A DNA stretch of 39,141 nucleotides from Myxococcaceae bacterium (lineage in GTDB: Bacteria; Myxococcota; Myxococcia; Myxococcales; Myxococcaceae). Shown piece by piece: positions 779 to 32,292 of the stretch (positions are counted from its first letter, which is position 1; every line of letters starts with the position of its first letter). The stretch lies in assembly GCA_016793725.1 (NCBI GenBank), contig JAEUJP010000241.1, forward strand, positions 1 through 39,141. The letters are read 5' to 3'. Made by a program: the position numbers and the translations under genes. Under the pieces are notes generated by a model. The model was not told where the DNA came from and ran no database searches. It worked only from the letters and a program-made list of their open reading frames with translations.

Positions 779-3094
779 CTACTTGTGCGTTGCGGTGTAC
801 ACGCCGTCCCACCCCGGCCCTGGCGGGTACTGGCGCAGCTGCACCAGCTCTTCGAGGTAGCGGCGGCTCGGGGCGTCGTCGGGCCACAGCTCGAGCACCT
901 TCTTGAACGAGGCCTCGGCCGCGTCCCAGCTCTGCGCCGTGTAGTCGTCGAGGCCCTTCTCGAACGCGGCGATCGCCTCGGCCTCTCTGCCCGCCGGCTG
1001 CCCGATGCCGCGCAGCTCGTAGATCTTCACCGGCTTGCGCTTGCCCTTCACCCGAACGGCGCCGAGGCGCCGGGTGACGACGTGATCTTTCACGAGCGGG
1101 TACGTGCCCTCGCCCAAGATGATCTGGGTGTCGTATTCCTTGTTCGTGCCCTCGAGGCGGGACCCCAAGTTCACCGCGTCGCCCATCACCGTGTAGTCGA
1201 CGCGCACGTCGGAGCCGATGTTGCCCACGATCATCGTGCCCGTGTTGATGCCGATGCCGATGTCGAACTCGGGGTAGCTCTCGCTGCGCCACTTCGCCTT
1301 CAGCTCCTCGAGCTTCTGCAGCATGGCGATGGCGGCGCGGCAGGCGCGCACGGCGTGGTCGGCCTGCTCGACGGGCGCGTTCCAGAACGCCATCACGGCG
1401 TCGCCGATGTACTTGTCCAGCGTGCCCTTCTCGTCGAAGACGATGCGCGTCATCGGCGAGAGGTACTCGTTCATGAACGCCGCGAGCTTCTCGGGCAGCA
1501 TGCGCTCTGACAGGGTCGTGAAGCCGCGAATGTCGCTGAACAGCACCGTCATCTCGCGCTTCTCGCCGCGGTTCAGCTTGTCGGGGTGCTGGAGCGCCTC
1601 TTCCATCACCTCTTCGCCGAGGTAGCGCGTGAACGTGCTGCGCAGCTTCACCTTCTCGCGGTCGACGCTGAGGTACCCGAGAAAGATGACGCTGAACGAG
1701 GCGGCGACGACGTTCGCGAGCGGCATGACGGTGGCGAGCAGCACCCCGCTGCCGAACAGCAGCTGGGCGAGCGCGCCCCACACGACGGCGATGCCGAAGA
1801 TGAGGGCGCCCTTCGCTGCGAACGAGGCGACGCGGGGGATCAGCGCGCCCAGCACCAGCGCGATCACGAGCATCGCGCCGAGCTCGAACCAGGTGAGGCT
1901 CCTCGGCCGCTCCATGAAGTCGCCCTGAAGCAGGTTCGAGGCGATCGACGCGTGGCCGTAGATGCCCGGCTCGGCCTCTTTGAACGGGGTCACGCGCTGG
2001 TCGCCGCTGCTGCCGGTCAGCGTGACGCCGACGAGCACGAGCTTGCCGGCGACGTCTTCGGGCTCGAACGTGCCGTCGATGACGTCGGCGATCGAGACCG
2101 TCTTGAACGTCTGGCCCGGGCCCACGTGGTTGATGAGCGCGAACGGCTCGTTGTCTTCGACCGGCCACGTCACCGACCCGCCCTGCCCTTTCAGCTCGAG
2201 CCCGGTGAGCTGAAGGTGTTCGGGGTCCCACTTCGGGATCACGGCGGCCTCACGCCAGATGGCCGCCGCCTGCACCGGCATGCTGGCGATGAAGCCCTTC
2301 GGGCCGCTCAGCTTCACGACCGGCGGCGACCGGCGCGTCGTGCCGTCGACGTCGGGCACGTAGTTCAGGTGGCCGAGGCGGTTGCCCAGGTCTTCGAACA
2401 CCTTCAGCGGCGTCTGCGCCGAGCGCTGCAGGTACGCCTCGATCTTCTCGACCGGCAGCGTCTTCGTGGTGTCGCCCGGCCCCGGCACGTCTCGAATCAC
2501 CGCCCGCTCGAGCGCCCGGTTCTGCTCGGCGATCGTCTCGGGCGAGAAGTCTTTCGCCTCGGCCTCGGAGTACGTGAAGACGCCCTGCACGAGGCTCTTG
2601 CCCGCGCGCTCGAACGCCTTGGCGAGCGCCGCGTCGCTCGAGCTCGCCGCCCGCTGCTCGAGCAGGGCGCGGAACTCGGGGTCACCCCCTTTTACGTCGA
2701 ACTTCTCGAGCAGGTCTCTGAACAGGGCCGCGTCGTCTTGCGACGCGTCGGTGTACGTGATGTCGAGGCCGATCGCCTTCGCCTTCGCGTCGACGAGGTG
2801 CTCGATGGCCGTCGCCATGCGGTGCCGCGGCCACGGCGGCAGCCCGAACTTCTGCGCGCTCTTCTCGTCGATCGCGACCACCGTGATGGCCGGGTGCGGC
2901 TCGACCGGCCCCCGAATGCGGAAGCGCAGGTCTGAGGCGCGCGCCTCGAGCAGCTGAATGCTCCGCACGATGGGGTCTGCCCCCTCGGTGAGCCCGATGG
3001 CGCGGACGGAGGTGGCCCGCAGGTGGAGCAGTGCGCAGACGAGCGCGACTGCCAGGGCGACCAGCTCGTAGCGCCGCCGTGAGAGCAGACTCAA
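779..3094 (-). CDS. Membrane adenylate cyclase with extracytoplasmic CHASE2 sensor
   Basis: The 771-residue protein has an N-terminal membrane anchor (about 10-25), a CHASE2 sensor facing outwards (about 35-390), three membrane helices (about 401-474) and a cytoplasmic class III nucleotide cyclase domain (about 510-695). All catalytic positions are visible: metal Asp521 (FSDIRGFT) and Asp565 (KYIGDAV), adenine-selecting Lys561 and Asp633 (VDYTVMGD), and Asn642/Arg646. This predicts an active adenylate, not guanylate, cyclase making cAMP from ATP. A C-terminal TPR-like helical stretch follows (about 705-760). The only usable start that keeps the first helix is a TTG, four codons after an in-frame stop; TTG and a weak ribosome site suggest low expression. 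The downstream gene encodes a Crp-type protein, the likely cAMP receptor. Confidence 0.93.
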   Translation of the reverse strand: MSLLSRRRYELVALAVALVCALLHLRATSVRAIGLTEGADPIVRSIQLLEARASDLRFRIRGPVEPHPAITVVAIDEKSAQKFGLPPWPRHRMATAIEHLVDAKAKAIGLDITYTDASQDDAALFRDLLEKFDVKGGDPEFRALLEQRAASSSDAALAKAFERAGKSLVQGVFTYSEAEAKDFSPETIAEQNRALERAVIRDVPGPGDTTKTLPVEKIEAYLQRSAQTPLKVFEDLGNRLGHLNYVPDVDGTTRRSPPVVKLSGPKGFIASMPVQAAAIWREAAVIPKWDPEHLQLTGLELKGQGGSVTWPVEDNEPFALINHVGPGQTFKTVSIADVIDGTFEPEDVAGKLVLVGVTLTGSSGDQRVTPFKEAEPGIYGHASIASNLLQGDFMERPRSLTWFELGAMLVIALVLGALIPRVASFAAKGALIFGIAVVWGALAQLLFGSGVLLATVMPLANVVAASFSVIFLGYLSVDREKVKLRSTFTRYLGEEVMEEALQHPDKLNRGEKREMTVLFSDIRGFTTLSERMLPEKLAAFMNEYLSPMTRIVFDEKGTLDKYIGDAVMAFWNAPVEQADHAVRACRAAIAMLQKLEELKAKWRSESYPEFDIGIGINTGTMIVGNIGSDVRVDYTVMGDAVNLGSRLEGTNKEYDTQIILGEGTYPLVKDHVVTRRLGAVRVKGKRKPVKIYELRGIGQPAGREAEAIAAFEKGLDDYTAQSWDAAEASFKKVLELWPDDAPSRRYLEELVQLRQYPPGPGWDGVYTATHK

Positions 3095-28650: not shown

Positions 28651-29700
<1,050 letters not shown>

Positions 29701-29875: not shown

Positions 29876-31006
29876 TCAGGGCTTCCACCCGGCGAGAAGT
29901 GCGCGAAGTTCTTCAGGAGTATTGAGCTCGGGCCGCTGGAGTACCTGGTCGAGGAGGAAGCGCTGGGCCTTGCCGACGGCGGGGCCGGGGCCGGTGCCGA
30001 GGGCGGCCATGAGGTCGGGGCCCTTGAGGGCGAGATCTTTGAGGGTGAGCGGGTGCGTCGCGAGCAGGTCGAGACGGGCTCCGAGCTCTGGAGCGTCGAG
30101 GGTGGCGAGATCTCTCGCGACGGCGGTACCGATGCGCGAGAGCCAGCGGCGAAGGCCGACATCGTCGCGCTCGGCGGGCACGCGCTCGGCGAGCAGGCGG
30201 GCGAGGTGCTCGGTCTCGGCGCTGCTGAGCTTGAGGCGATCGGGCTTCGCCTTCAGCTGGCGGAGCAGCACGGCGAGGCGCAACGAGGCAGGAGCGCGCG
30301 CGACGGCGTCGGGGTCGACGTCTTCGGCGCCGAAGATCTCGCGCAGCAGGCCGGTGCGCTTCAAGAGCTCGAGGCCACGGGCAACGTGGGGCGAGCCCAA
30401 GGTTTTGAGGAGCTCGTCGCGCACGCGCTCCATGGCGACCTTCGTGAAGACGTCGAGGCGCGCGGGAATGGCGGCGAGGGTCTGTGGCTCGATCTCGAAG
30501 TCGAGAATGGTGGCGAAGCGCACGGCGCGCATGCAGCGCAGGCCGTCTTCGCCGAAGCGCTCGAGGGGGTCTCTCACGCAGCGAACGAGCTTCGCCTTCA
30601 GATCATCGCGGCCGCCGAACGGGTCGACGAGCTCGCCGGTGGCGGGGTCTTCGGCCATGGCGTTGATGGTGAAGTCGCGGCGGGCGAGGTCGGCTTCGAC
30701 GTCGGTGTGAAACGAGACGGTCGCGGGGCGGCGACCGTCGACGTAGTCACCCTCGGAGCGAAACGTGGTGACCTCGACGTGGTGCCCCTGCATGAGCACG
30801 GTGACGGTGCCGTGCTGAATGCCGGTGGGTATGACCTTCTTGAAGACGGCGATGACCTGGTCGGGCTTGGCGCTGGTGGCGAGGTCGAAGTCTTTGGGCT
30901 GCTTGCCCAGCACGTGATCGCGCACGCAGCCGCCGACGAGGTACGCGCGGTAGCCGGCGCCCTTCAGGCACTGGTGAACTTCGAGAACGGCGGGCGGAAT
31001 CTGCAT
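29876..31006 (-). CDS. cca: CCA-adding enzyme / poly(A) polymerase family tRNA nucleotidyltransferase
   Basis: This class II nucleotidyltransferase adds or repairs the 3' CCA of tRNAs. The 376 residues carry the head-domain motif LVGGCVRDHVLG with metal Asp39/Asp41 (KDFDLAT), the RRDFTINAMA segment (109-118) and DPFGGRDDL. The neck follows with ERFGEDGLRCMRAVRFA. The body and tail are helical; no HD phosphohydrolase domain is visible. CCA-adding, A-adding and poly(A) forms cannot be told apart by eye. The ATG start coincides with the discriminator base of the upstream tRNA, and no later start keeps the catalytic motif. The tRNA lacks an encoded CCA, so it is itself a substrate. Confidence 0.92.
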   Translation of the reverse strand: MQIPPAVLEVHQCLKGAGYRAYLVGGCVRDHVLGKQPKDFDLATSAKPDQVIAVFKKVIPTGIQHGTVTVLMQGHHVEVTTFRSEGDYVDGRRPATVSFHTDVEADLARRDFTINAMAEDPATGELVDPFGGRDDLKAKLVRCVRDPLERFGEDGLRCMRAVRFATILDFEIEPQTLAAIPARLDVFTKVAMERVRDELLKTLGSPHVARGLELLKRTGLLREIFGAEDVDPDAVARAPASLRLAVLLRQLKAKPDRLKLSSAETEHLARLLAERVPAERDDVGLRRWLSRIGTAVARDLATLDAPELGARLDLLATHPLTLKDLALKGPDLMAALGTGPGPAVGKAQRFLLDQVLQRPELNTPEELRALLAGWKP

Positions 31007-31079
31007 GACCCCGGCAAGAATCGAACTTGCGACCTTCGGTTTAGGAAACCAACGCTCTATCCAACTGAGCTACGGGGCC
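31006..31079 (-). tRNA. tRNA-Arg (anticodon CCT)
   Basis: A 74-nt cloverleaf reads on the minus strand. The acceptor stem is GGCCCCG/CGGGGTC with one G-U pair, the D arm GCTC/GAGC, the anticodon stem TTGGT/ACCGA, and the loop TTCCTAA gives anticodon CCT. The T arm is GCAAG/CTTGC with TTCGATT, and the discriminator is A. CCT reads the AGG arginine codon, rare in such a GC-rich genome. CCA is not encoded; TGC follows the discriminator. The 3' end overlaps the cca start codon by one base. Confidence 0.95.
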
Positions 31080-31164
31080 TCGTCTGGCTTCGAACAGCCT
31101 GACGCAGATACCACCGGAAACTCGACAGCGCATCAGCGTACGCGAGCGTGCTACTGCTTCGCGG

Positions 31165-32292
31165 ATGTGGCGCCTCGCCCTCGTGCTGCTCGTGGCCGCC
31201 TGCGCCTCGCCGGTGACCCAGCCGGTCTTCGACCCGGGCACCCACGGGGTCGTCAGGCTCCCCGATGCCGGGCCGCCCGACGCGGGCCCGTTCGATGCCG
31301 GGGTGCCGTACTGGCTCACCGTCTTCGACGACGTGCGCATTCAGAGCCCGAACGGCACGGGCGTGCGACCCGACGCCGGCCAGAACCTGCACGTCGCGGC
31401 CGCCTCCTTCTCGCTCACCGGCACGTCGTTCGAGCGCGTGACGCTGGTGGTCGAGCTCGCGACCACGTGCTTCCCCTTCGAGTCGTGGTCGTCGAACCCG
31501 CCGCCGATGGGCCACCGCTGGCCGGCCGACTGTGACGCGTTCGATCGCAACTTCGAGCTCGAGCTGCTTTCGATCGACGGCGGCGTCGACCACGAGCTCA
31601 TTCGCGCCATCACGCCGTTCGGCGGGCCGCTGCGCATCGAAGAAGACGTCACGCACGCGCTCAACTTCGGGCCGACCGGCCGCACGCTGCAGGTGACGAT
31701 ACCGACGTGGTCAGACGGCGCGGGCCAGGTGAGCGGCGCGAACGGCGGGTGGAACGTGACGGCGCGTCTGTACGTCGTGCCCGGCCGCCCTGCGCAGCGC
31801 GTGCTCGCGGTGGTGCCGCTCGTCGACGCCAATGACGGCCCCGATGCGGGTCGCACGGTCTCGTTCACGGTGCCGACCGGGGCGACGAGCGCGCGCCTCG
31901 AGTACCGCGTCACCGGGCACGGCGGTGGCCCGATCGACCCGGCGTGCATCGGGCCGGCCGAAGAGTTCTGCCAGCGCGCGCACCACCTCTTCATCGACGG
32001 CGCGAAGGTGAGGCAGCTGACGCCGTGGCGCAGCGACTGCGCGAGCCTCTGCACGGTGGCGCACTACGGCAACCCCGGCTTCGACTACTGCGTCGAGAAC
32101 CCGTGCGGGGCGATGCAGAGCGTGCGGGCGCCGCGCGCGAACTGGTGCCCTGGCAGCGTGACCGAGGCGATCGTGCTCAATGAAGCGGCGCTCGCGACGC
32201 CGGGGCCACACTCGTTCGGCTACGTGATCGACAACGTCGCGCCCGGCGGGTCGTGGCGGGTGTCGGCCGTGCTGTACGTGCTCGGCGACTGA
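31165..32292 (+). CDS. PNGase F-like peptide:N-glycosidase lipoprotein
   Basis: The 375-residue protein has a lipoprotein signal (LVAAC, Cys13) and a short Asp-Ala-Gly linker (34-46), then two beta domains that follow PNGase F of Elizabethkingia. The first has CDAFDR (123-128), matching CDEWDR, with Asp127 at the position of catalytic Asp60. The second has AEEFCQRAHHLFIDG, matching CAEWCFRTH, with Glu267 at Glu206, and NWCPGSVTE, matching GWCPGM. The third important residue, Glu118 in TETW, is Pro180 here (IPTW). PNGase F removes N-glycans from glycoproteins. This one would act at the cell surface, perhaps on prey or host glycoproteins; activity is uncertain given the substitution. It diverges from the tRNA. 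Confidence 0.8.
   Translation: MWRLALVLLVAACASPVTQPVFDPGTHGVVRLPDAGPPDAGPFDAGVPYWLTVFDDVRIQSPNGTGVRPDAGQNLHVAAASFSLTGTSFERVTLVVELATTCFPFESWSSNPPPMGHRWPADCDAFDRNFELELLSIDGGVDHELIRAITPFGGPLRIEEDVTHALNFGPTGRTLQVTIPTWSDGAGQVSGANGGWNVTARLYVVPGRPAQRVLAVVPLVDANDGPDAGRTVSFTVPTGATSARLEYRVTGHGGGPIDPACIGPAEEFCQRAHHLFIDGAKVRQLTPWRSDCASLCTVAHYGNPGFDYCVENPCGAMQSVRAPRANWCPGSVTEAIVLNEAALATPGPHSFGYVIDNVAPGGSWRVSAVLYVLGD

Follow-up and report, generated by a model that had tools for sequence, protein, structure and literature searches.

A tRNA-Arg(CCT) gene shares its discriminator base with the start codon of cca in a Myxococcaceae bacterium

The stretch of DNA analysed here, called the window, is the 39-kb contig C926 (39,141 nt) of G000, a draft genome of the Myxococcaceae (9.75 Mb, 939 contigs, 90% complete). 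Its reverse strand carries cca, the gene for a CCA-adding tRNA nucleotidyltransferase (29876-31006, 376 aa, ATG at 31006-31004), assigned from the ORF call and the domain content, and directly upstream on the same strand a tRNA-Arg(CCT) of 74 nt (31006-31079), called by ARAGORN and matching RF00005 with 68.2 bits. The next gene downstream, 175 nt past cca, is mnmA (tRNA 2-thiouridylase, 28651-29700, reverse strand; NF001138, 422.9 bits, over the cut-off); an mnmA-like start likewise lies 3' of cca at locus L094, as judged by eye. According to the ORF map, 85 nt (31080-31164, reverse strand) separate the 5' end of the tRNA from a divergent ORF (31165-32292) with a PNGase F C-terminal domain (PF09113). 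This region is presumed to hold the tRNA promoter, and its single TANNNT is located 61 nt upstream of the tRNA. Several relatives have the end of a same-strand reading frame, Trp-Arg-Arg-stop, in front of the tRNA (by eye). A forward-strand ORF of 176 aa (31005-31535) runs antisense across the entire tRNA; it is likely spurious, and we take it to be of the kind that is read off tRNA complements.

The cca product scores above the cut-offs of PF01743 (poly A polymerase head domain, 136.4 bits, cut-off 23) and PF12627 (RNA-binding domain, 57.5 bits, cut-off 22). Its best NCBIfam model is NF009814 (CCA tRNA nucleotidyltransferase) with 273.5 bits, below the cut-off of 290, and the solved CCA-adding enzymes 6ibp and 1miv are among its best matches in the PDB. 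A separate poly(A) polymerase gene on contig C440 reaches 327.6 on TIGR01942 (pcnB, cut-off 305.65), a model on which the window protein scores 183. From these matches the window gene looks like cca rather than the PcnB gene of this genome, short of proof. The ATG at 31006-31004 is probably the true start, because query residue 8 aligns with residue 9 of 1miv and matches in relatives mostly run from query residue 2 or 3 onward; the N-termini in relatives are mostly longer, by three residues in G002 and by seven in G017. As had been predicted originally, no later standard start would preserve the catalytic motif: downstream of the ATG, no in-frame ATG, GTG or TTG occurs before the GTG inside GGCVRD. 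The non-standard codons ATT (codon 3) and CTG (codon 14) are found in frame ahead of the motif. Upstream of the ATG, the frame contains no ATG, GTG or TTG and stays open until it meets a TAG at positions 8-10 of the tRNA.

The acceptor stem of the tRNA is fully paired (7 of 7 pairs), which leaves A73 at 31006 as the discriminator, and the bases after it are TGCAGATT. Two structural claims of the original prediction are thereby borne out, namely that the tRNA lacks an encoded CCA and that the A of the cca ATG is also position 73 of the upstream same-strand tRNA, the ARAGORN call and the ORF call meeting at 31006. The U that follows the discriminator (31005, reverse strand) is the second base of the AUG, and a cleavage 3' of the discriminator would fall between 31006 and 31005.

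We placed the best tRNA-Arg match of each genome relative to cca in the family, where 94 of 96 genomes had a cca match. Tight pairs, defined as a tRNA-Arg(CCT) at most 150 nt upstream of cca on the same strand, were present in 23 of these 94 genomes and 15 of 26 genera, and ARAGORN called all 23 tRNAs as Arg(CCT). Beyond these, the tRNA lies on the same strand within 2.5 kb in three genomes and at 6.5-125 kb in 23; it is on the opposite strand in another 23 (0.2-130 kb off, on the upstream side of cca) and on a different contig in 20, and two genomes gave no tRNA match. For the order outside the family we covered the 39 genomes with a cca match, seven of which have the tRNA within 150 nt, four more within 600 nt, and one close by on the other strand. 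Outside the order 33 genomes of the phylum matched, and we examined 19 of the 20 with listed places (G152, with its match 69 bases from a contig end, was omitted); among these listed matches the distance is at most 150 nt in one and at most 800 nt in eight more, and one tRNA is close on the other strand. In family f11 outside the order (L240, L242, L243, L245, L246, L250, L253), the tRNA-Arg(CCT) is found about 370-460 nt upstream of cca. None of 80 pattern-chosen loci from other phyla had a same-strand tRNA in the DNA upstream of cca (up to 3 kb, less in some); L017 and L036 among them have a tRNA-Glu there on the opposite strand.

On a cca tree of 47 chosen rows, adjacency needs 8 changes compared with 15.9 for shuffled labels, on a topology in which the G000 branch is unresolved and some rows counted as not adjacent have short upstream sequence (L091, L140). 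From these sequence comparisons we read the tRNA-Arg(CCT)-cca linkage as ancestral in Myxococcota and lost repeatedly. Insertion of a mobile element at the tRNA 3' end was considered as the cause of separation and dismissed: tyrosine integrases were sought in 12 genomes that have the two genes on one strand but far apart, and among the places listed an integrase lay between them only in G063. At 28 loci (L089 and L209 being one place), the 700 nt in front of cca were scanned for a copy of the 3' end of the tRNA, and only L099 exceeded shuffled sequences (18/26 versus 17).

Comparison of 31 tight pairs, with the start chosen by us where several in-frame start codons exist, gave spacings from discriminator to start of -1, 1, 1, 2, 8, 10, 13, 16 nt and up. 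The value of -1 belongs to the window, followed by G031 (GTG at 1 nt), G066 (TTG at 1 nt, with a GTG at 28 nt in frame as well) and G002 (TTG at 2 nt), and the spacing is at least 8 nt in 27 of the 31 pairs. In G001, where the cca start lies 8 nt past the tRNA, the tRNA shares 92% identity with that of the window. Thus, among the genomes examined, the overlap is confined to the source genome (1 of 31 tight pairs), which rules out a conserved overlap; moreover, in 46 of the 94 family genomes the best tRNA match is either more than 2.5 kb off on the same strand (23) or on the opposite strand (23). Separation of the two genes in relatives was named in the original prediction as a finding that would speak against it, and as regards the overlap this has come true. 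The family search covered no other genome of the genus, and the overlap state is that of one unreplicated draft. Present in a single genome, the overlap shows no sign of selection. A U occurs at most 2 nt after the discriminator in 25 of the 31 pairs, and all 25 are among the 27 pairs whose tRNA lacks an encoded CCA.

How readily such an overlap may arise can be seen from the other tRNAs of the same genome. ARAGORN gave 49 distinct tRNA calls, a few possibly false, from stretches around 48 Rfam matches. Of these, 47 allowed the acceptor stem to be placed and lack a CCA behind it, so that they appear to need Cca; in the remaining two, Ser(TGA) and Asn(GTT), CCA seems to be encoded. Within two bases past the discriminator a U is found in 31 of the 47 tRNAs with a placed stem, and an ATG arises at the discriminator itself in three of them (Arg-CCT, Glu-TTC and Phe-GAA), only that of Arg-CCT opening an ORF of at least 80 aa. 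With the genes touching and a discriminator ATG in 3 of 47 tRNAs, no special cause has to be invoked for the exact overlap. The overlap of exactly 1 nt is therefore not clearly beyond chance; the adjacency is, since it is conserved. Two other loci of this genome have a start codon just behind a tRNA. At L150 (contig C552, ~1500-2097), an ATG 3 nt past the discriminator of a tRNA-Thr(CGT) opens a zinc-ribbon protein (PF13453) of 174 aa, with an in-frame GTG also within the 3' end of the tRNA. At L146 (contig C70, ~1700-3073), the tRNA-Glu(TTC) is followed at 5 nt by the ATG of a kinase/PEGA-domain ORF, and the ATG at its discriminator has no long ORF.

We found no sigma70-like or terminator-like site between 29700 and 31400, where shuffled sequences average 0.2 and 0.8 such sites, so that this absence says little. 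The promoter inside the tRNA that the original prediction had proposed to look for did not turn up in this search or as a TANNNT within the 74 nt, the latter a consensus-only test and equally weak as an absence. As tRNA and cca lie on the same strand and touch, there is no room for a terminator between them. In the absence of terminator-like or promoter-like sites in this region, and of a TANNNT in the tRNA, the tRNA transcript probably runs into cca. An RNase Z gene is present in the source genome on contig C314 (306 bits, cut-off 293). In the seven genomes searched RNase Z exceeded the cut-off in all but G031, a 1260-contig draft with near-zero spacing, where the best score was 45.9 bits. 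RNase Z is described as cutting in most cases directly downstream of the discriminator (PMC10673834), and for the B. subtilis enzyme a stimulation of about 200-fold by a U just past the discriminator is given (PMC10100781).

The possible ribosome binding site of cca, GGGGU (pairing to 16S rRNA at -5.7 kcal/mol), is part of the tRNA acceptor stem. Initiation on the folded precursor thus looks poor, at least from the sequence, and the yield would be low. The pairing score itself separates little: for the 25 nt upstream of cca in 24 relatives, it is -7.7 kcal/mol or lower in nine and weaker than -3 in seven. In the predicted precursor, the leader could pair with the trailer (ATCTGC with GCAGAT), and 16 of 18 loci have less of such a stem than the window. 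However, 9% of shuffled leaders reach it, and we make no claim for this stem.

The simplest reading of the overlap is the compaction of an old tRNA-mRNA dicistron, and we give about an even chance to the full proposal, in which the RNase Z cut and the cca message would exclude each other on every precursor molecule. According to this proposal, tRNA-Arg(CCU) and cca would be an old, presumably co-transcribed pair of the Myxococcota. The source lineage would have lost the spacer and with it, probably, the opening codons of cca, so that the discriminator A and the following UG became the cca start codon. RNase Z, if it cuts after A73 in this organism as expected, would split A|UG and leave the product UGCAGAUU, which has no start codon. 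Since such a cut removes the start, translation from the AUG would need the uncut precursor, and each precursor could end up as mature tRNA or as a cca message fit for translation, never as both. A minority of the precursors, those not yet or never processed at the 3' end, would then serve as the template for Cca, and a low yield may be tolerable if little enzyme is needed. The shared base, the RNase Z gene, the conserved linkage, the clustering of adjacency on the cca tree, the stepwise decrease of the spacing to -1, the frequent U within 2 nt of the discriminator and the lack of a TANNNT inside the tRNA speak for this proposal. On the other hand, tRNA and cca are far apart in many members of the family, so that cca can in general be expressed without being co-transcribed with the tRNA, and the near-zero relative G031 shows no RNase Z above the cut-off. 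The mutual exclusion of tRNA maturation and cca expression put forward in the original prediction thus follows logically if the two are co-transcribed, and the RNase Z gene is at hand; the part that found no support is the selected loop.

That loop would require low Cca to slow down the maturation of the tRNA 3' end, so that more precursor stays uncut and more Cca is made. It is a logical outcome of the overlap, given a shared precursor and a tRNA without CCA, yet the RNase Z cut precedes the addition of CCA, so that low Cca alone would not preserve the uncut precursor. In addition, a single tRNA would be a poor sensor of the need for Cca when 47 of 49 ARAGORN tRNAs appear to lack CCA, and neither the solitary overlap nor the predominance of spacings of 8 nt and more lends support beyond this logic; we regard evolved feedback as very unlikely. 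A related idea, to which we assign a slightly better though still small chance, is that the AUG would act as start codon and RNase Z site at once, its A being the discriminator and its U the stimulating base, with tRNA 3' maturation as an irreversible off-switch of cca, whose output would report the uncut precursor, i.e. the RNase Z capacity. Another way to obtain cca would be a leaderless message, transcribed from a tRNA-internal promoter, that starts at or near the AUG and is independent of tRNA processing. Leaderless messages are reported to be frequent in some high-GC bacteria (PMC3848588, PMC4681348), and this mode of initiation would go well with an AUG at the very start of the message and would render tRNA folding irrelevant. 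The missing sigma70-like site (a weak test) and TANNNT motif stand against it, as does the close similarity of the tRNA to that of G001 with its start 8 nt downstream, and we consider a leaderless cca possible, if unlikely.

An AUG-first cca could also be freed by a cut before A73, with A73 and CCA restored on the tRNA afterwards, as in the punctuation of mitochondrial transcripts. Some reports have cleavage leaving human mt-tRNATyr, which shares one A with mt-tRNACys, without its discriminator (PMC5544427); the shared base of the window is an A as well, and in G031, G066 and G002, with gaps of 1, 1 and 2 nt, a normal cut would release a near-leaderless cca. But the source lineage would need a non-standard cut, the U at +1 agrees with the normal one, and this route appears improbable. 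The junction might further be an error of sequence or assembly, the true genome having a short spacer like its relatives. The fragmented, 90% complete draft, alone in its genus, and the mostly longer N-termini of relatives (G002, G017) leave some room for this, but we judge it highly unlikely, as the contig spans 39 kb, tRNA and ORF are intact, the N-terminus is in line with a solved enzyme, and spacings of 1-2 nt already exist in relatives. Finally, translation of the RNase Z product could begin at the ATT or CTG ahead of the motif, which would make the ATG irrelevant; such codons rarely serve as starts, here they would do so without a leader, and a start at the CTG would lose residues, from query residue 8 onward, that align to solved enzymes, so that this appears extremely improbable.

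If the two genes share a transcript, the locus would be an example from nature of a single RNA cleavage that has to decide between tRNA and message. The old linkage of tRNA-Arg(CCT) and cca uncovered here in Myxococcota, in which the spacer ranges from -1 to hundreds of bases, could provide a series for testing how the 3' processing of a tRNA and the translation of the gene next to it affect each other. Gene callers that forbid overlaps of tRNAs and coding sequences may miss or shorten such starts. In the literature searched, with subscription papers mostly outside its scope, we found no bacterial overlap of a tRNA with a start codon and no cca feedback. A known bacterial tRNA-mRNA dicistron is thrT-tufB, in which, as in tRNA-cca, a tRNA directly precedes a same-strand gene related to translation. 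The Thr(GGT)-tuf pair of the source genome has a spacing of 37 nt; in the tuf arrangement the spacer keeps the start codon whole, whereas in tRNA-cca the cut is expected inside it. The leaderless mRNAs described for actinobacteria (PMC3848588, PMC4681348) have the start codon at or near a 5' end, as a leaderless cca message would, but they were mapped to transcription starts, whereas cca has a tRNA upstream and no promoter was found. The closest likeness in the shared base itself is with human mt-tRNATyr and mt-tRNACys as described in PMC5544427: in both cases one A belongs to the 3' end of a tRNA and also to the gene that follows, and a single cut cannot serve both genes. The mitochondrial pair, however, consists of two tRNAs in an organelle, where the lost base is thought to be restored, whereas in the window a tRNA shares its base with a start codon.
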